Part shown: positions 29,941-38,739 of the stretch, piece after piece
How positions within the stretch are numbered: position 1 is the stretch's first letter
Layout of the letters: every line of letters starts with the position of its first letter
NCBI RefSeq assembly: GCF_902859645.1
Contig: NZ_CADIJR010000015.1
Location: forward strand, 1-64,000
DNA from: Achromobacter insuavis
GTDB lineage: Bacteria; Pseudomonadota; Gammaproteobacteria; Burkholderiales; Burkholderiaceae_B
Length of the DNA: 64,000 bases
Direction: 5' to 3'
The notes under the pieces: model-generated
Seen by the model: only the letters and a program-made list of their open reading frames with translations
Database searches by the model: none
Told to the model about the DNA's origin: nothing
Made by a program: the position numbers and the translations under genes

Positions 29941-30426
29941 TCACGCCAGCGCTTTCACCAGCAGCACCGTCGTGAAACCGCTGTCCCATTCCTCGTCGGG
30001 ATAGGTGTCGACCTCGGCATAGCCATGCTTGGCGTAGAACGCGCGGCTCTGCGTATTGAAGGTGTCGGTCTCCAGCCGCGCCTCGCCGAAGCCGGCGGCG
30101 CGCATGCCATCCTCGGCCAGCGCCAGCAGCGCCGCGCCGACCCCGCGCCGCTGCTGCGCCGGATGCACGTGCAGGGCCCAGATGAAGTTCTTCTCCCAGT
30201 CCACCATGCCCGCCACGCGGCCGCCGGCCTCGCACACCTGGAAGCGCGCGCCGCGCTCGGCGACGTATTGCGGGATCTTGCCGCTATCCAGGAAGTGCTG
30301 GTACTTCTGCGGCGTCATCTGCGGCCGCCAGGTGCCTTCATAGGTTTGCGTCAATATGTCCTCCAGCGCCGCCACATCGTCGGGGCGCGCCGGTCGGATC
30401 GTCAGGGAAGTCCGGGTTTGCGTCAT
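29941..30426 (-). CDS. GNAT N-acetyltransferase
   Basis: 161 residues. IRPARPDDVAALEDILTQTYEG at the N-terminus, the pyrophosphate-binding loop of motif A (HVHPAQQRRGVGAALLALAE) and a motif B (NTQSRAFYAKHGYAEVDTY). A standard acetyl-CoA-dependent acetyltransferase. Acceptor not predictable. Close to an unknown gene upstream on the same strand (30 bp). Confidence 0.92.
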   Translation of the reverse strand: MTQTRTSLTIRPARPDDVAALEDILTQTYEGTWRPQMTPQKYQHFLDSGKIPQYVAERGARFQVCEAGGRVAGMVDWEKNFIWALHVHPAQQRRGVGAALLALAEDGMRAAGFGEARLETDTFNTQSRAFYAKHGYAEVDTYPDEEWDSGFTTVLLVKALA

Positions 30427-33094: not shown

Positions 33095-33148
33095 TGGGGC
33101 CATCGCGGGCATCGCCGCCCGCCCCCCTTGAACCGATCGCCCACGCCC

Positions 33149-33520
33149 ATGCACTACACCCAGGACCCCGCCACCCCGCCCGCCCCCACCGTCAGCTTCG
33201 ACGACTTCATGAAGGTCGACATCCGCGTCGGCACCATCATCGCCGCCGATCCCTTTCCCGAGGCGCGCAAGCCGGCCTACAAGCTGACCATTGATTTCGG
33301 CGCCGGCGTCGGCGTCAAGAAAAGCTCGGCGCAGATCACCGGCCGCTACACGCTCGAGCAACTGCCGGGCAAGCGCGTGCTCGGCATCGTCAACTTCCCG
33401 CCGCGCCAGGTCGGCCCGGTGCGCTCGGAAGTGCTGGTGCTGGGGCTGGCCGACGCCGCCGACCAGACCGTGCTGGTCACGCCCGAGCTGGACGTGCCCA
33501 ACGGCGCCCGGCTGACCTGA
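33149..33520 (+). CDS. CsaA/YgjH-like tRNA-binding protein (OB fold)
   Basis: 123 residues. VSFDDFMKVDIRVGTIIAAD, the signature of EMAP/tRNA-binding domains, then FPEARKPAYKLTIDFGAGVGVKKSSAQI (in parts), a KRVLGIVNFPPRQVGPVRSEVLVLG core and VLVTPELDVPNGARL. CsaA homologues bind tRNA and have chaperone-like activity. Start ATG 33149, with TTG 33128 as a weaker alternative. Encoded just after the propeller gene. Confidence 0.93.
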   Translation: MHYTQDPATPPAPTVSFDDFMKVDIRVGTIIAADPFPEARKPAYKLTIDFGAGVGVKKSSAQITGRYTLEQLPGKRVLGIVNFPPRQVGPVRSEVLVLGLADAADQTVLVTPELDVPNGARLT

Positions 33521-33565: not shown

Positions 33566-33747
33566 AAGCCTCCCTGGGGAGTAGCCTCTTCCGGCCCCGT
33601 CCGGAAGCGCCCGCGTCAACACTCTTGGCCCTTCTGGCCATGGCGCCGGCAACCGACACGGTTTGGCGAGACCACGGACTTTTCCATAGCTTCTGACCGG
33701 GCGATATGGAAAGTCTGTGTGTTTCGCCCGGTCGGAGCCTCTCCCGC
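33566..33747 (+). promoter_or_regulatory. yybP-ykoY (Mn2+) riboswitch controlling mntP
   Basis: The aptamer signature is present: GGGGAGTAGCC at 33576 and CGTCAACA at 33615-33621, with hairpins between. A TACACT -10 box sits at 33558-33563. Downstream two mutually exclusive stems overlap: 33677-33688 with 33705-33715, and GACCGGGCGA 33695-33704 with TCGCCCGGTC 33724-33733, the latter lying next to the CGGAG ribosome site of mntP. Mn2+ binding should favour the first stem and expose the ribosome site. Confidence 0.93.
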
Positions 33748-34311
33748 ATGAACGCCCTTTCCACCCTCATCCTGGCCTTCGCCATGTCCACCGACGCCTT
33801 CGCCGCGGCGGTCGGCAAAGGCGCCGCCCTGCACAAGCCACGGCTGTCCGAAGCGCTGCGCACCGGCGTGATCTTCGGCGTGATCGAAGCCATCACGCCC
33901 GTGATCGGCTGGGCGCTCGGCTCCATGGCCGCCCGCTTCGTGCAGGACTGGGACCATTGGATCGCCTTCGGCATGCTCTGTATCCTGGGCGCGATGATGA
34001 TCCGCAACGGCCTGGGCGCCGACCACGAAGAAGCCGCGCCGGTCGGCCGCCATTCGTTCTGGCTGCTGGCCGCCACCGGCTTCGCCACCAGCATCGACGC
34101 CATGGCCGTCGGCGTCAGCCTGGCCTTCATCGACAACAACATCGCCGTCACCGCGCTGGCCATCGGCCTGGCGACCATGCTGATGGTGACCCTGGGCGTC
34201 ATGATCGGCCGGCTGGTCGGCAACGTCGCCGGCAAGCGCGCCGAGGTGCTGGGCGGCCTGGCGCTGATCGGCATCGGCGCCACCATCCTGTACGAGCACT
34301 TGAAGGCGTAA
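33748..34311 (+). CDS. mntP: manganese efflux pump MntP
   Basis: 187 residues, six membrane helices in two pseudo-repeats. The conserved Asp pair is visible: [15 protein letters not shown] in helix 1, and [17 protein letters not shown] in helix 4. An inner-membrane exporter of Mn2+. It is preceded by a complete Mn2+ riboswitch and followed by a perfect 12-bp hairpin. Start ATG 33748. Confidence 0.98.
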
Positions 34312-34314
34312 GAC

Positions 34315-34344
34315 GCGCGCCCGCCACACGCGTGGCGGGCGCGC
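34315..34344 (+). terminator. GC hairpin after mntP
   Basis: GCGCGCCCGCCA pairs exactly with TGGCGGGCGCGC across a 6-nt loop, 4 bp after the stop; only a weak pyrimidine tail follows. Confidence 0.6.
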
Positions 34345-34518
34345 CGATCTCTCGGAAAATAGCGGACGGAATGACCCCGATCGCGCCGTGGGATCGGGCT
34401 ATCCTCACACGCTTGTTGCAGCGCATATGCATGATCCGCCCCTGCCCGGGCGCATCGGCGCGCCGCAGCGCCCGCCCGCGCGCCGGGCCGGGAACGACGC
34501 GAACAGGATGCTCCCCCC

Positions 34519-35742
34519 ATGGCCTTGAAACACTACCGCGACCTCGACGTCCACGAAGCCGCGAAGGCCCGCATCCGGCTGGTGTTCCAGCACTTCGAGC
34601 GGGTCTGCGTCGCCTTCTCCGGCGGCAAGGACAGCTCCGTCACCCTGCACCTGGCGCTCGAGGTCGCGCGCGAAATGGGACGCGGCCCGGTGCACGCGGT
34701 CTTCATCGACCTCGAAGGCCAATACCAGGCCACCATCGCCCACGTCACCGCCATGTTCGATCGCGCCGACGTCCACCCCTGGTGGATCTGCCTGCCGATC
34801 AACCTGCGCAACGCCTCGAGCCTGCGCGAACCCTACTGGTGCGCCTGGGAGCCCGGCCGCGAGGCCGACTGGATCCGGCCGCTGCCGCGGCATCCGTCCG
34901 TCATCAACGATCCCGGCTATTTCCCGTTCTACCGCCATCGCATGGAATTCGAGGAATTCGTGCCCGAATTCAATCATTGGCTGGCGCGCGACGCGACCAC
35001 CGCGTTCCTGGTCGGCATCCGTTCCGACGAATCGCTCAACCGCTATCTCGCCGTCAAACGCCGCACCAAGAAATGCGCCTGGACGCCGCCCGGCGCGCAC
35101 AAGCCGCTGGCCTGGAGCACCCGCGACAAGCAGCGCGACAACGCCGTCACCTTCTTCCCGATCTACGACTGGAAGTTCGAAGACCTGTGGCGCTACACCG
35201 GCGAAAACGGTCACGCCTACAACCGCCTCTACGACCAGATGCTGCGCGCCGGCGTGCCGTATTCGCAGATGCGCATCTGCCAGCCCTACGGCGACGACCA
35301 GCGCAAGGGGCTGGACCTGTTCCACAAGCTCGAACCCGCCACCTGGTTCCGCACGGTCAAGCGCGTACAGGGCGCCAACTACGCGGCGCGCTATTGCCGC
35401 CAGCGCTTCCTCGGCTATCGCGGCGGGCTGGGCCTGCCGCCCACCTTCGACACCTGGCGCCAGTACAGCCAGTTCCTGCTCGCCAGCATGCCCGTTGCGC
35501 TGCGCCAGGTGTACACGCGGCGCATCGACGTCTTCATCGCCTGGTGGGAACAGCGCGGCCATCCGCTGGCGATGTGGCCCGACGCCGGCATCCCCGACCT
35601 CGAGAATCGCAAGGTGCAGCCCTCCTGGCGCCGCATCGGCCTGTCGCTGCTCAAGCAGGACATGGCGCGCTCGCTGTCCTTCGGCCCGGCGCGCCGCGAC
35701 ATCGACAGCCTGCTTCCCGACCCGCACCGCTCCGCGCCATGA
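34519..35742 (+). CDS. ibrA: IbrA-type PAPS-reductase-like ATP pyrophosphatase (DUF3440)
   Basis: 407 residues. PP-loop SGGKDSS at 34-40 inside VAFSGGKDSSVTLHLALEVA, as in PAPS reductases, DndC and TtcA-type thiolases. Then VFIDLEGQYQATIAHV, PWWICLPINLRNA, a C-terminal DUF3440 region (RMEFEEFVPEFNHWLA, KRRTKKCAW, YCRQRFLGYRGGLGLPPTFDTW). E. coli IbrA belongs to this type and is required with IbrB for eib immunoglobulin-binding adhesin expression; its chemistry is not known. The gene overlaps the next by ATGA (35739-35742). Probable role: ATP-dependent activation, possibly sulfur transfer, on a nucleic acid or nucleotide (inference). Confidence 0.9.
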   Translation: MALKHYRDLDVHEAAKARIRLVFQHFERVCVAFSGGKDSSVTLHLALEVAREMGRGPVHAVFIDLEGQYQATIAHVTAMFDRADVHPWWICLPINLRNASSLREPYWCAWEPGREADWIRPLPRHPSVINDPGYFPFYRHRMEFEEFVPEFNHWLARDATTAFLVGIRSDESLNRYLAVKRRTKKCAWTPPGAHKPLAWSTRDKQRDNAVTFFPIYDWKFEDLWRYTGENGHAYNRLYDQMLRAGVPYSQMRICQPYGDDQRKGLDLFHKLEPATWFRTVKRVQGANYAARYCRQRFLGYRGGLGLPPTFDTWRQYSQFLLASMPVALRQVYTRRIDVFIAWWEQRGHPLAMWPDAGIPDLENRKVQPSWRRIGLSLLKQDMARSLSFGPARRDIDSLLPDPHRSAP

Positions 35743-36287
35743 CGCATCCCCTGAAACACTACGATTTCCTGCTGCTGCGCTCATACGACGACGAGCCCGC
35801 CTTCTTCGCGCAGATGGGCCGGTTCTTCGCCAGCGCCACGGTGCGCCGCGACTGCGGCGGTTATCCCCTGAACGACAGTCCCCGGCACCGCTGGTTCATC
35901 GTCCGGCGGCATAACCATGCGCGCGTGCTCGGCTTCATCAGCATCGAACTGCAAAGCGGCACGGTGCGCATCCGCGACGGCTACATCCGCCCCGAAGCGC
36001 GCCAGCTCGGCCTGTTCCGGGCGCTGCGCCAGCGCGTGCTCGACTACATCGACGACCTGGACCAGCCCTGCACCCTGCGCGTGCCCTGGCTCAGCGCCGC
36101 GCTGCTGCAACCATACGGCTTCCAGCCCCACACCAGCCGCGGCAACTGGACCACCTTGAAAAGGAATGCGCATGCCACTTCTCGACAGCCTGGAGAACCG
36201 GGCCAGGATGCTGTTCAACGAACTGGACAGCCTGCCGATCCGGCAACGGATCGAAGCCATCAACCGGATCCGCCTGTGCCTGCATGA
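35739..36287 (+). CDS. GNAT-like protein coupled between ibrA and ibrB
   Basis: 182 residues as an open frame. Residues 1-140 show an acyltransferase-like core: HYDFLLLRSYDDEPAFFAQM, IVRRHNHARVLGFISIELQS, the CoA-loop-like RQLGLFRALRQRVLDYID and LRVPWLSAALLQPYGFQP. The last ~40 residues are read from the out-of-frame start of ibrB, so translation overlaps it by 116 bp; the true core ends near 36170. Start ATG overlaps the ibrA stop. Acceptor unknown. Confidence 0.75.
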   Translation: MTHPLKHYDFLLLRSYDDEPAFFAQMGRFFASATVRRDCGGYPLNDSPRHRWFIVRRHNHARVLGFISIELQSGTVRIRDGYIRPEARQLGLFRALRQRVLDYIDDLDQPCTLRVPWLSAALLQPYGFQPHTSRGNWTTLKRNAHATSRQPGEPGQDAVQRTGQPADPATDRSHQPDPPVPA

Positions 36288-36807
36288 ACACAGCCCCTTC
36301 GCCGCCGAGCCGGTCGACTGCGTGCAATGGATCCCCGGCGAGGCCGTCGAAGCCAACGACTACAACCCCAACAGCGTCGCGCCGCCGGAAATGCGGCTGC
36401 TGGAGCTGTCGATCGAGGCCGACGGCTACACCCAGCCGATCGTCGCGCACCAGGCCGGCCCCGACCGCTACGTCGTCGTCGACGGCTTCCACCGCCAGCG
36501 CGTGGGCAAGAAGAAGGGCCCCATCCGCCAGCGCCTGCAGGGCTATCTGCCCATCGTGGCGATCCGCCCCGGGCGCGCCGGCGCCGCCGACCGCATCGCC
36601 GCCACCATCCGCCACAACCGCGCCCGCGGCGTGCACGGCGTGATGCCCATGACCGACATCGTCGTGCGCCTGCTCCGTGCCGGCTGGAACGAGGCCGACA
36701 TCGCCCGCCAGCTCGGCATGGACGACGACGAGGTCCTGCGCTTCAAACAGGTGTCGGGCCTGCCCGAGCTGTTTCTCGATCATCGCTATTCGCGCTCCTG
36801 GGACTGA
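36172..36807 (+). CDS. ibrB: IbrB-type ParB/Spo0J-fold protein
   Basis: 211 residues from ATG 36172; AAAGGA seven bases upstream favours it over ATG 36166. The ParB-N/sulfiredoxin fold is clear: MRLLELSIEADGYTQPIVAH, then the ParB-type VVVDGFHRQRVGKKKGPIRQR (in part), followed by RHNRARGVHGVMPMTDIVVRL and an HTH-like end (WNEADIARQLGMDDDEVLRF). The G-x-HRxR motif binds nucleotide in ParB CTPases and phosphoryl groups in relatives. It works with IbrA in E. coli. The tail overlaps the kinase gene on the other strand by 65 bp. Confidence 0.9.
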   Translation: MPLLDSLENRARMLFNELDSLPIRQRIEAINRIRLCLHEHSPFAAEPVDCVQWIPGEAVEANDYNPNSVAPPEMRLLELSIEADGYTQPIVAHQAGPDRYVVVDGFHRQRVGKKKGPIRQRLQGYLPIVAIRPGRAGAADRIAATIRHNRARGVHGVMPMTDIVVRLLRAGWNEADIARQLGMDDDEVLRFKQVSGLPELFLDHRYSRSWD

Positions 36808-38008
36808 CGCCGGCGGCCAGCGGCACGCTCAGGCGGCAGCGCAGGCCCGCGCCCGGCGCCGACTCCAGCGCCAGCGTGCCGCCGTGGCGTCGCGCGATGG
36901 CGGCCACGATCGACAGCCCCAGCCCCGCGCCCTCGCCCTGGCGCCCGCCGCGCCAGAAAGGTTCCACCGCCTGCGCGCATTGCGCCGGGGTCAGCCCCGG
37001 CCCGCGGTCGCGCACCGTCACCACCAGGTCGGCCGCCACGACCGAGACGCGGACCTCGACCTCGGCCTGCGCCGGCGAATACTTGAGCGCGTTGTCCACC
37101 AGATTGCGCACCGCGCAATCCAGCAGCGCATCCGGCAGCGCCGCCCAGGGCTGGCCGGCGGGCAGGTGCCAGCGCACCCGCGCGGGCTTGCGGCTGGCCA
37201 CCCGCGCCAGCACCGCGAGCGCGTCGCAGGCCGCGTCGGCGCCGTCATCGTCGGCGCGCGCCAGCATCAGCAGTTGCTCGATCAGGCGCTCCAGCCGCGC
37301 GGTGCCCTGCAGCGCATGGGCCACCGCCTGGCGGCTGGCCGCGTCCCCGACGGTCGCCGGCAAGCGTTCCAGCACCTGCAGGTGCGCCTTGATGGCCGTC
37401 ACCGGCGAACGCATCTCGTGCGCCGCGTGGTCCGAGAAATGCCGTTCGCGCAGCAGCATGTCCGCCATGCGCCGCGACAGGCGCGCCAGGCCCTGGCCGA
37501 CGCCGAACCACAGCAGCCCGACCCCCACCAGCAGGCCGGCCACGCCGGGCAGCAGCGCCATCCAGGCCATCTGCCGGTGCAGGGCCGCGCGGATGTCCAT
37601 GCGGCCGGCCGTGGCGATGCGCACCCCGTCGCGTTCGATGGCGTAGGTGCGCCACGGGCCGCCAGCGTGCGCGAGCAGGCCGAACCCCAGCGGCGCGCCA
37701 TCCAGCGCCGGCCCGCCCGGCGCCCGCGCCCGCGCCGGCGCGTCGCCGGCAGGTCCGCTGACTTCGCAAGCCAGGCCATCGCACAACGGCAGGCCGACCG
37801 CGGCCGCCATCTCCACGGCGTCTTCCCGCGGCGCGCGCGGCCATTGCGTCATCAGCCGCGCCACCATCACCGCCGATGCCGCCAGCCGCGAATCCAGGGC
37901 CGCGTCCAGCTCGGCGCTGGCATGCTGGAACGCCCACAGCGTGACGGCGCCGCCGAACACCAGCCAGACCGCGCCCAGCAGCAGCAACAGGCGGGCGCGC
38001 AGGCTCAT
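36743..38008 (-). CDS. two-component sensor histidine kinase (QseC-like)
   Basis: 421 residues. Membrane helix 1 (LLLLLGAVWLVFGGAVTLWAF), a ~110-residue periplasmic sensor, helix 2 (WMALLPGVAGLLVGVGLLWF). The phosphoacceptor is in FSDHAAHEMRSPVTAIKAHL (H-box). N-box RNLVDNALKYSP, then DRGPGLT and GAGLGLSI. The natural end RLSVPLA is followed by about 22 residues encoded by the antisense of the ibrB tail, so the original stop has been lost. ATGA overlap with the response regulator at 38005. Confidence 0.95.
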   Translation of the reverse strand: MSLRARLLLLLGAVWLVFGGAVTLWAFQHASAELDAALDSRLAASAVMVARLMTQWPRAPREDAVEMAAAVGLPLCDGLACEVSGPAGDAPARARAPGGPALDGAPLGFGLLAHAGGPWRTYAIERDGVRIATAGRMDIRAALHRQMAWMALLPGVAGLLVGVGLLWFGVGQGLARLSRRMADMLLRERHFSDHAAHEMRSPVTAIKAHLQVLERLPATVGDAASRQAVAHALQGTARLERLIEQLLMLARADDDGADAACDALAVLARVASRKPARVRWHLPAGQPWAALPDALLDCAVRNLVDNALKYSPAQAEVEVRVSVVAADLVVTVRDRGPGLTPAQCAQAVEPFWRGGRQGEGAGLGLSIVAAIARRHGGTLALESAPGAGLRCRLSVPLAAGVSPRSANSDDRETARAGPTPV

Positions 38009-38670
38009 GGCGCCGGCATCCCCAGGCGGTAGCCCCAGCCGCGCACCGTCTCGATCAGGTCGGCGCCCAGCTTGCGGCGCAGCTTGTGGATGTGCACGTT
38101 GACCGCGTTGCTCTCGACCCGGTCGTCAAAGCCATACAGGCTGTCGCGCAGCTGGTCCATGGTGAGGATCTGCCCGGGATGCTGCAGCAGGGTCTTGAGC
38201 AGCGCCAGCTCGCGCCGCTGCAGCGTGACGCGCCGGCCGTCGCACAGCACTTCGCCGCGCGACAGGAACAGGGTCAGGCGGCCGTGGTCGATGCGGTCGG
38301 CGCCATGGCCGGCGGCGCGCCGTATCAGCGCCTGCAGCCGCGCGCCCAGTTCGTCCAGGTCGAACGGCTTGAGGACGTAGTCGTCGGCGCCCGCGCGCAG
38401 GGCGCCGACGCGCTGCGCCACCCCCGACCGGGCGCTGAGCACCAGCACCGGCAGGTTCTGGCGCCGCGCGCGCCATTTCGCCAGCAGCGTCACGCCGTCG
38501 CCGTCGGGCAGGCCCAGGTCCAGCACACAAGCGCTGACGTGGGAGGTCTGCACCGCCAGGTCGGCCTGCCGCAGATCGCCGACCGCATCGACCACGAAGC
38601 CCTGCAACCCCAGGCCGGCCTGCACCGCCAGGGCGATGGAGGCGTCATCCTCGACCAACAAAATCCGCAT
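38005..38670 (-). CDS. OmpR/QseB-type response regulator
   Basis: 221 residues from ATG 38670. Receiver with Glu7-Asp8, phosphoacceptor Asp51 (CVLDLGLPDGDG), switch Ser (VLVLSARSG) and Lys (DYVLKPFD); winged-helix domain RREVLCDG-like then LALLKTLLQHPGQILTMDQL, VHIHKLRRKLG. Upstream of and coupled to its kinase. Cognate signal unknown. The gene is divergent from the TauE exporter, its possible target. Confidence 0.96.
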   Translation of the reverse strand: MRILLVEDDASIALAVQAGLGLQGFVVDAVGDLRQADLAVQTSHVSACVLDLGLPDGDGVTLLAKWRARRQNLPVLVLSARSGVAQRVGALRAGADDYVLKPFDLDELGARLQALIRRAAGHGADRIDHGRLTLFLSRGEVLCDGRRVTLQRRELALLKTLLQHPGQILTMDQLRDSLYGFDDRVESNAVNVHIHKLRRKLGADLIETVRGWGYRLGMPAP

Positions 38671-38739
38671 GGCGGGCTCTCCGTTCCGGCGCGCTATACT
38701 TATTTGAAGTAATAAGCTAATTGCCAAAAGTAATTAATC

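Follow-up and report, generated by a model that had tools for sequence, protein, structure and literature searches.

The closest described relatives of the locus treated here are IbrA and IbrB of Escherichia coli ECOR-9, which are reported to activate the eib genes (Sandt 2002, as cited in passages of PMC10434257 and PMC6008420), and ybdN-ybdM, the corresponding pair of strain K-12, which stands under CitR according to the part of PMC9068703 concerned with it. Relatives of IbrA and IbrB span phages, plasmids, bacteria and one archaeal plasmid, and the open-licence literature searched gives no chemistry for them. In the stretch of 64,000 nucleotides analysed here (the window; contig NZ_CADIJR010000015.1 of a 6.8-Mb draft genome of Achromobacter insuavis in 199 contigs), ibrA and ibrB enclose a third gene, which is assigned to the GNAT-family acetyltransferases. 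Comparison with bacterial and viral loci indicates that the gap which ibrA and ibrB leave between them serves recurrently as a slot for tailoring enzymes, with a GNAT in some loci and a cupin of the ectoine synthase (EctC) family in others.

The ibrA gene (34519..35742, forward strand) runs from an ATG at 34519 to a TGA at 35742 and encodes 407 amino acids with a PP-loop ATP-pyrophosphatase-type enzyme part and a DUF3440 domain. It shares the ATGA at 35739..35742, read from the sequence of the same strand, with the start codon of the GNAT gene (35739..36287, forward strand, ATG at 35739; 182 amino acids with a conserved core from residue 1 to about 143), and this overlap may couple the translation of both genes. 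The ibrB gene (36166..36807, forward strand) encodes 213 amino acids, or 211 from a second ATG at 36172, with a ParB-like domain and, judged from weak matches, a probable helix-turn-helix. Depending on its start, its frame overlaps that of the GNAT gene by 122 bp (36166) or 116 bp (36172). An earlier note, written from the letters of the window, had described a trio of an IbrA/DUF3440 PP-loop protein, a GNAT-like protein and a ParB-fold IbrB joined by an ATGA and a 116-bp overlap; both overlaps are found as described, and domain, profile and relative matches bear out the trio.

Identity of the three proteins

IbrA of the window passes the cut-offs of DUF3440 (PF11922; 92.5 bits, cut-off 25) and of Pfam PAPS_reduct (63 bits, cut-off 22.5). 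The S-x-GKDS PP-loop (S34, G36, K37, D38, S39) is invariant in all 151 rows of the IbrA alignment, and the solved structures nearest to the IbrA profile in a profile comparison are CysD, FAD synthase and PAPS reductase. CysH and the PAPS reductases carry the C-terminal catalytic motif ECGLH. This motif occurs in none of the 151 IbrA rows, and CxxC in one. Scores against the NCBIfam models of PAPS reductases (18-23 bits, cut-offs 154-254) and of DndC (24 bits, cut-off 290) stay below the cut-offs. For these reasons IbrA was dropped as a member of either family, and a place in the phosphorothioation machinery, to which the earlier note had pointed, is not supported. As regards cysteines like those of the iron-sulfur cluster of DndC, no cysteine column is invariant in the 151 IbrA rows; four positions are often cysteine, with all four occupied in 84 rows and three of the four retained in the 11 bacterial trios described below, and these cysteines may have a metal or sulfur-relay role.

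The GNAT protein of the window taken alone scores below the Acetyltransf_1 cut-off (17.6 bits, E 0.0048; cut-off 20.7). All three scanned relatives from the same slot lie above it (L055 26.3, L080 30.2 and L084 50.7 bits), and the first of these, a viral protein, shares 55% identity with the window GNAT. A family profile of 17 rows matches 48 distinct solved GNAT sequences with E values up to 0.001, the best being 1.9e-8. The acyl-CoA loop of GNAT proteins has the motif R/Q-x-x-G, and R88 and G91 at this position are each kept in 21 of 22 GNAT rows. As far as sequence comparison goes, the middle gene is thus a GNAT, settled by its relatives and the profile rather than by its own score.

The GNAT core evolves under purifying selection: over 15 Achromobacter pairs, its mean ratio of nonsynonymous to synonymous substitution rates (dN/dS) is 0.307, compared with 0.168 in ibrA and 0.185 in the non-overlapping part of ibrB. 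In the tail which overlaps the start of ibrB (36172..36287, forward strand), the GNAT frame shows dN and dS of nearly the same size, and the ibrB frame is under no more than weak constraint there. Because of this lack of constraint, and because the GNAT frame of one genome (G097) already ends at a stop at residue 158, the tail is regarded as a run-on, and a functional domain in this part was rejected.

IbrB of the window scores 21.7 bits against ParB_N, under the cut-off of 26.3, and matches phrog_2159 with an E value of 8.8e-66. Its profile matches chains of ParB, Noc and, weakly, SbnI (5uje, E 0.00064). It has the motifs G-x-T-x-P, DGFHR and RHNRARG, with D, G, H and R of DGFHR each present in 140 of 141 rows. 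In the profile comparison the first two fall on the part of ParB and Noc that binds the nucleotide; RHN-x-ARG, further along, resembles the third motif of ParB. From this family membership it would be expected that IbrB binds a nucleoside triphosphate (NTP).

Distribution of the trio in bacteria

In all 11 distinct trios found in Beta- and Gammaproteobacteria, the genes stand in the order ibrA-GNAT-ibrB, and the GNAT gene overlaps both of its neighbours. The overlap between ibrA and the GNAT gene measures 4 bp in ten of them and 13 bp in the remaining one, with starts picked mechanically. A further, divergent case of the trio type occurs in a bacterial genome (locus L138, genome G430). The conservation of the GNAT gene with ibrAB, for which the earlier note had proposed a genome survey, is hence seen in these 11 trios and in the recurrent GNATs of viral gaps.

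Within the genus, the GNAT was found in 6 of 43 genomes and IbrA was matched in nine; in G004 the match covers no more than 60 residues and is a short stretch (C5:356841-357035) with 45% identity to IbrA residues 3-62, lying within another long frame. In all six GNAT genomes the trio occupies the same site, between a presumably csaA-like gene and a kinase gene, and in three of them mntP intervenes between the csaA-like gene and the trio. Three relatives that do not carry the trio (G006, G029, G031) keep synteny up to the end of mntP and no further. At the family level the GNAT was present in 8 of 268 genomes, and a scan of named genomes gave six loci, namely three of Achromobacter and those of Pseudothauera nasutitermitis, a Lysobacteraceae metagenome-assembled genome and Dyella sedimenti; these last three, together with the eight family genomes, make up the 11 trios. 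Four proteins flanking the three non-Achromobacter trios were scanned and belong to EAL and HAD genes, thiC and a lipase gene (L030, L031 and L032, respectively). Since the surroundings differ among these three trios, it is suggested that the trio moved horizontally.

That the trio is an integrated module, as the earlier note had inferred, is favoured by the site common to six species and by the divergence of three relatives without the trio directly after mntP. On the other side, no convincing repeat pair flanks the trio (repeat search 33600-37600), and nine scanned neighbours in the window were no integrases, with no wider search for a mobile element made.

The trio-type GNAT is rare. Among 398 phylum-wide genomes, the GNAT profile gave the window as its sole strong match; seven others were weak (21-25 bits), with no ibrA or ibrB within their stretches of 3.1-3.3 kb. 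IbrA itself is patchily distributed: of 399 genomes sampled across the order, two gave a match with an E value of 1e-30 or lower. Its relatives occur in 215 phage records and 602 plasmid records. On a Klebsiella plasmid (L025), ibrA-ibrB lies on an IncFIB plasmid near iroBC and transposase genes, and a plasmid of the archaeon Natrinema thermotolerans (L027) carries an ibrA-ibrB-like pair amid a run of hypothetical genes.

Viral loci and their ibrA-ibrB gap

Viral ibrA loci were taken from two scans of viral contigs, the best 80 loci of each, and the 158 locus ids gave 133 distinct loci after removal of repeats; the proportions in this set are biased, as it holds best matches only and some near-copies, and most seeds of the second scan were IbrA rows of the GNAT type. 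IbrB was present in 130 loci, and three were without it within the stretch examined. The 130 pairs comprised 81 with adjacent genes, 25 with ibrB first and 24 with a gap after ibrA. Ten of these gaps hold a GNAT and twelve an ectoine-synthase-family cupin, in nine cases as a separate gene (among the viral examples L168:6314-6694 and L186:2285-2665) and in three fused to IbrB. The last two hold neither (L066 and L202, of which L202 resembles the start of ibrB with a broken frame); the gap frame of L066 (6140-7195, 352 amino acids) has weak matches to the zinc-finger-type families DUF4379 and DUF723. Across all 133 loci, a GNAT was counted in 11, an EctC-like cupin in 14 and a third small family, named W120, in 65.

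In a quick tree built from 151 IbrA rows (the 11 trios, 133 viral rows and seven others), made without bootstrap and with the GNAT rows L084 and L109 on long branches, the GNAT trait requires 10 gains or losses, eight of them forced by well-supported branches, and the EctC trait one. Because of the 10 changes of the GNAT trait, the gap is, on this tree, a recurrent slot for tailoring enzymes and not one old insertion. Ten divergent GNATs, which had been found with the same bacterial trio profile and its iterations, scored 29-47 bits (seven) or 10-20 bits (three) against this profile, and the seven exceed the best phylum match outside the window (24.9 bits); the GNAT of L184, a weak match that resembles another GNAT subfamily, was left out of this scoring. 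The window's own subfamily is represented by L055, whose surroundings look like a prophage and include an integrase and a tail-tip gene. Direct searches with the window GNAT against annotated phages and plasmids, and with this one protein against viral contigs, gave no match, and the GNAT of L084 found none in annotated phages.

The three EctC-like members scanned match PF06339 with E values from 3.3e-31 to 1.8e-44, and the EctC-like profile matches solved L-ectoine synthases (E 6.5e-36). Eight residues are invariant in all 15 EctC-like rows (S25, R27, T42, Y54, E59, Y87, H95 and F109), and their counterparts in the solved enzyme are its iron ligands (E57, Y84, H92) together with S23, R25, T40, Y52 and F106. 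The relevant part of PMC6344544 names three iron ligands and seven other residues in contact with the ligand, and five of these seven are kept in the EctC-like rows. With their catalytic residues kept, the phage EctC-like enzymes look active.

Fused reading frames join EctC and IbrB in four loci and IbrB and W120 in six. Mycobacterium phage Gaia has an EctC-IbrB fusion, gp104, annotated as 'ectoine synthase/ParB multidomain protein', which adjoins a PAPS-reductase-like gene; in Pseudoalteromonas phage XCL1123 the EctC-like and IbrB parts are two separate genes. W120 (RIYHxWxKWE...CEHxLTxxxxNRxAWLGQAxxC) lies beside ibrA or ibrB, for example at L094:4624-5010, L178:4570-4989 and L197:4606-4998 and in 62 further viral IbrA loci, and has no convincing Pfam or PHROG match. 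The IbrA-IbrB pair and the annotation of the Gaia fusion are already known, and the GNAT trio is a variant of this pair; no paper on the trio or on a GNAT/EctC slot was found in the open-licence literature searched, a search which did not include W120 itself.

From the 464 reading frames flanking the viral loci, 140 were drawn randomly, and 25 of the 62 Pfam families matched were listed. Helicase families lead this list (Helicase_C 9, SNF2 8, ResIII 5), and nuclease, NinG and methyltransferase families follow with one or two members each. The listed families include no GNAT, ectoine-synthase or aminotransferase family, and since families with a single member come last, at most one flanking frame could match any family outside the list. 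In Gaia and in Microcystis phage Mwe-JY13, the module stands among helicase, primase or recombination genes; in L055 it lies beside tail genes instead. Because of the helicase-led flanks and the replication or recombination neighbours in the two named phages, nucleic acid is preferred as the target.

Proposed function

Tentatively, with a probability of about 0.45, it is proposed that IbrA and IbrB form an ATP- or NTP-using modification pair, which probably acts on nucleic acid, and that the GNAT or the EctC-like enzyme acts on an amine or amide of the product. The PP-loop of IbrA would adenylate a group of the target and install or expose a nitrogen-bearing group there, and IbrB, as a ParB-like protein of the NTP-binding type, would steer the reaction towards nucleic acid, presumably DNA. 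The GNAT would then acetylate the amine of the IbrA-IbrB product, and in other phages an EctC-like cupin, in the gap or fused to IbrB, would condense an acetamide with an amine to form a ring. TilS is a precedent for a PP-loop enzyme which adenylates a base and joins an amine to it. The observed basis consists of the gene anatomy, the conservation, the recurrence of the slot, the fusions and the kept catalytic residues of the cupins; from it we infer the amine chemistry, the NTP binding, the nucleic-acid target and the order of the steps. The three-step reaction (activation, transfer, nucleotide-dependent partner) suggested in the earlier note is likewise hypothetical. Such a modification might serve to mark self DNA, to escape enzymes of the host or to switch genes, the last in the manner of IbrAB and eib in E. 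coli. The alternation of GNAT and cyclase and the fusions of the cyclase with IbrB point to an amine- or amide-bearing product, for which the expected mass shifts are +42 for an acetyl group and a loss of water on ring closure. The slot also ties the bacterial trio to a large gene system of phages.

Several observations weigh against this proposal. The recurrence of the slot speaks for linkage and not for a particular target, and GNATs act on proteins and small molecules as well. Neither a GNAT nor an EctC-like gene is present in 108 of the 133 viral loci, and 58 also lack W120; in two genomes of the genus (G010 and G023), ibrA-ibrB lies at another site with no GNAT. As most IbrA-IbrB pairs are without a slot enzyme, the finishing step would be optional. 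GNAT and EctC-like genes occur together in none of the 133 viral loci, so that an action of both in sequence is not supported by the data. No fusion of a GNAT with IbrA or IbrB was found among the loci examined, and EctA models are missing from the listed NCBIfam matches of the slot GNATs. Finally, two positions of the ectoine synthase pocket are altered in the EctC-like rows: that of W21 is F in 8 of 15 and a gap in 7 of 15, and position 40, equivalent to N38, is N in 1 of 15. N38 of the solved enzyme contacts the carboxylate of N-acetyl-diaminobutyrate and W21 its carbon chain, as described in part of PMC6344544. Because both positions are changed, the substrate would not simply be N-acetyl-diaminobutyrate; it is probably related to, but different from, that of ectoine biosynthesis. 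The best-supported reading is a modification pair, in which IbrA would activate with ATP and IbrB would direct, together with an exchangeable and optional finishing enzyme outside the core. The nucleotide or DNA modification proposed in the earlier note gains from the EctC-like enzymes in the same gap and from their fusions to IbrB; neither membership in a phosphorothioation system nor an eib-type target (see below) is supported.

Alternative explanations

The locus might instead be a regulatory system, in which IbrB is a DNA-binding regulator, IbrA modifies it or makes its effector and expression is tuned by the GNAT through acetylation of a protein, be it IbrB, IbrA or a target regulator, with no nucleic acid being modified. 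This would agree with the reported activation of prophage eib genes by IbrAB in E. coli (Sandt 2002, as cited in parts of PMC10434257 and PMC6008420), with the position of ybdNM of K-12 beside and under the regulator CitR (in the relevant section of PMC9068703) and with the ParB-like domain and the weak helix-turn-helix matches of IbrB. However, an EctC-family cupin with intact iron ligands, placed in the slot and fused to IbrB, is hard to explain by regulation. Moreover, the YadA_anchor profile, used for eib-like adhesins, found no match in the source draft genome while the E. coli control matched, and for this reason the eib-like target class appears to be absent from this draft genome. Regulation of an eib-like target in this genome was consequently rejected, and regulation in general is considered doubtful.

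Defence or counter-defence, with the ParB-fold protein as a nucleotidase or nuclease effector and the enzymes making or sensing a modified nucleotide, is unlikely. Links to defence and nuclease and NTPase activities are described for ParB/Srx proteins in parts of PMC10853773 and PMC12839542, and the patchy distribution of IbrA in the order would be in line with such a role. Nevertheless, PADLOC gave partial matches for IbrA (DndC 30 bits, BrxP 13 bits) and none for the GNAT or IbrB, and none of the four scanned proteins flanking the three non-Achromobacter trios is encoded by a defence gene. The many phage and plasmid records with IbrA relatives fit a use by phages equally well.

A role in small-molecule or sulfur metabolism would make IbrA a PAPS-type sulfotransferase or reductase and IbrB a kinase like SerK or SbnI, with a compatible solute or a sulfur amino acid being completed by the GNAT or the EctC-like enzyme. 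The PAPS_reduct match of IbrA, the resemblance of its profile to CysD and PAPS reductase structures, the weak SbnI match of IbrB and the fact that EctC cupins are metabolic enzymes elsewhere could be taken in this sense. Against these stand the missing ECGLH motif and the NCBIfam scores far from the PAPS reductase models, the lack of an EctA model among the listed matches of the slot GNATs and of an aminotransferase among the 25 families listed for the sampled flanks, and the two named phages which carry the module among genes of DNA metabolism, so that this explanation is distinctly unlikely.

That the GNAT gene is a chance reading frame or a passenger landed between ibrA and ibrB, for which its own score below the Pfam cut-off, the two genus genomes with ibrAB and no GNAT and the commonness of ordinary GNATs (another lies 4 kb upstream) could be cited, is highly improbable and was rejected in view of the constant gene order and overlaps of all 11 trios of Beta- and Gammaproteobacteria, the purifying selection, the repeated appearance in the slot on the IbrA tree and the absence of GNATs from the families listed for the 140 flanking frames.

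The proposed modification pair can also be put in a more specific form, which is rather unlikely in all its details. IbrA might be a TilS-like amine ligase which places an amino acid or diamine arm (e.g. one like diaminobutyrate) on a nucleobase at sites selected by an NTP-loaded IbrB clamp, and the free amine would be acetylated by the GNAT or the arm cyclised by the EctC-like cupin, so that the base would end up acetylated or ectoine-like. If true, this would be a new class of nucleic-acid hypermodification common to phages and bacteria and would supply the missing chemistry of IbrAB.

Neighbouring genes

Upstream of the trio lie a gene with a tRNA_bind domain (33128-33520), which we take to be csaA-like, and mntP (33706-34311). 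Between mntP and ibrA, an inverted repeat with two perfectly matching 11-bp arms and a loop of 4 bases was spotted by eye on the forward strand (34317..34342). It is not followed by a T run and is absent from the output of the terminator scan; it possibly marks the transcript end of mntP. On the other side, the 3' end of ibrB overlaps a convergent reading frame on the opposite strand (36743-38008) by 65 bp, which confirms the abrupt edge with a kinase gene that the earlier note had described. According to the domain scan, this frame is a sensor kinase gene with HisKA and HATPase_c domains. The sensor kinase (window 36743-38727) was matched with E values up to 1e-60 in seven of 43 genus genomes, six of which have the trio; the match in G018 contains two internal stops. 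The second, ordinary GNAT gene about 4 kb upstream (29941-30426; Acetyltransf_1, 56.6 bits) stays at its site in relatives both with and without the trio.

Comparison with known systems

Like the trio of the window, IbrA-IbrB of E. coli and ybdN-ybdM consist of a DUF3440 PP-loop protein followed by a ParB-domain protein. The full-length matches listed from enterobacterial plasmids and one E. coli phage share 41-43% identity over 94-96% of the window IbrA. In the two enterobacterial copies viewed, ibrB lies directly 3' of ibrA with no GNAT, in contrast to the window.

Dnd/Ssp phosphorothioation likewise combines a PP-loop enzyme (DndC) with a protein of the ParB superfamily (DndB, termed ParB-like in part of PMC10853773). 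The window IbrA differs from DndC in reaching 24-30 bits against DndC models, where the NCBIfam cut-off is 290; the other Dnd genes were not profile-searched. In the BRC (GNAT and TGT) and Dpd (ParB-like DpdB) systems, as treated in part of PMC12839542, a GNAT or a ParB-like ATPase is proposed to take part in nucleic-acid modification. Unlike both, the module of the window has a PP-loop enzyme, and the nine neighbours scanned in the window include no PglZ, HerA or TGT protein, with no profile search aimed at these made. DNA modification by a GNAT-type protein is represented by Mom of phage Mu, to which the slot GNAT might conceivably be related.

The modules of the phages Gaia and XCL1123 resemble the window in that ibrA is followed by an enzyme and IbrB. 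In these phages a cupin of the EctC family fills this place, as part of an IbrB fusion in Gaia and as a gene of its own in XCL1123, whereas in the window the place is taken by the GNAT.

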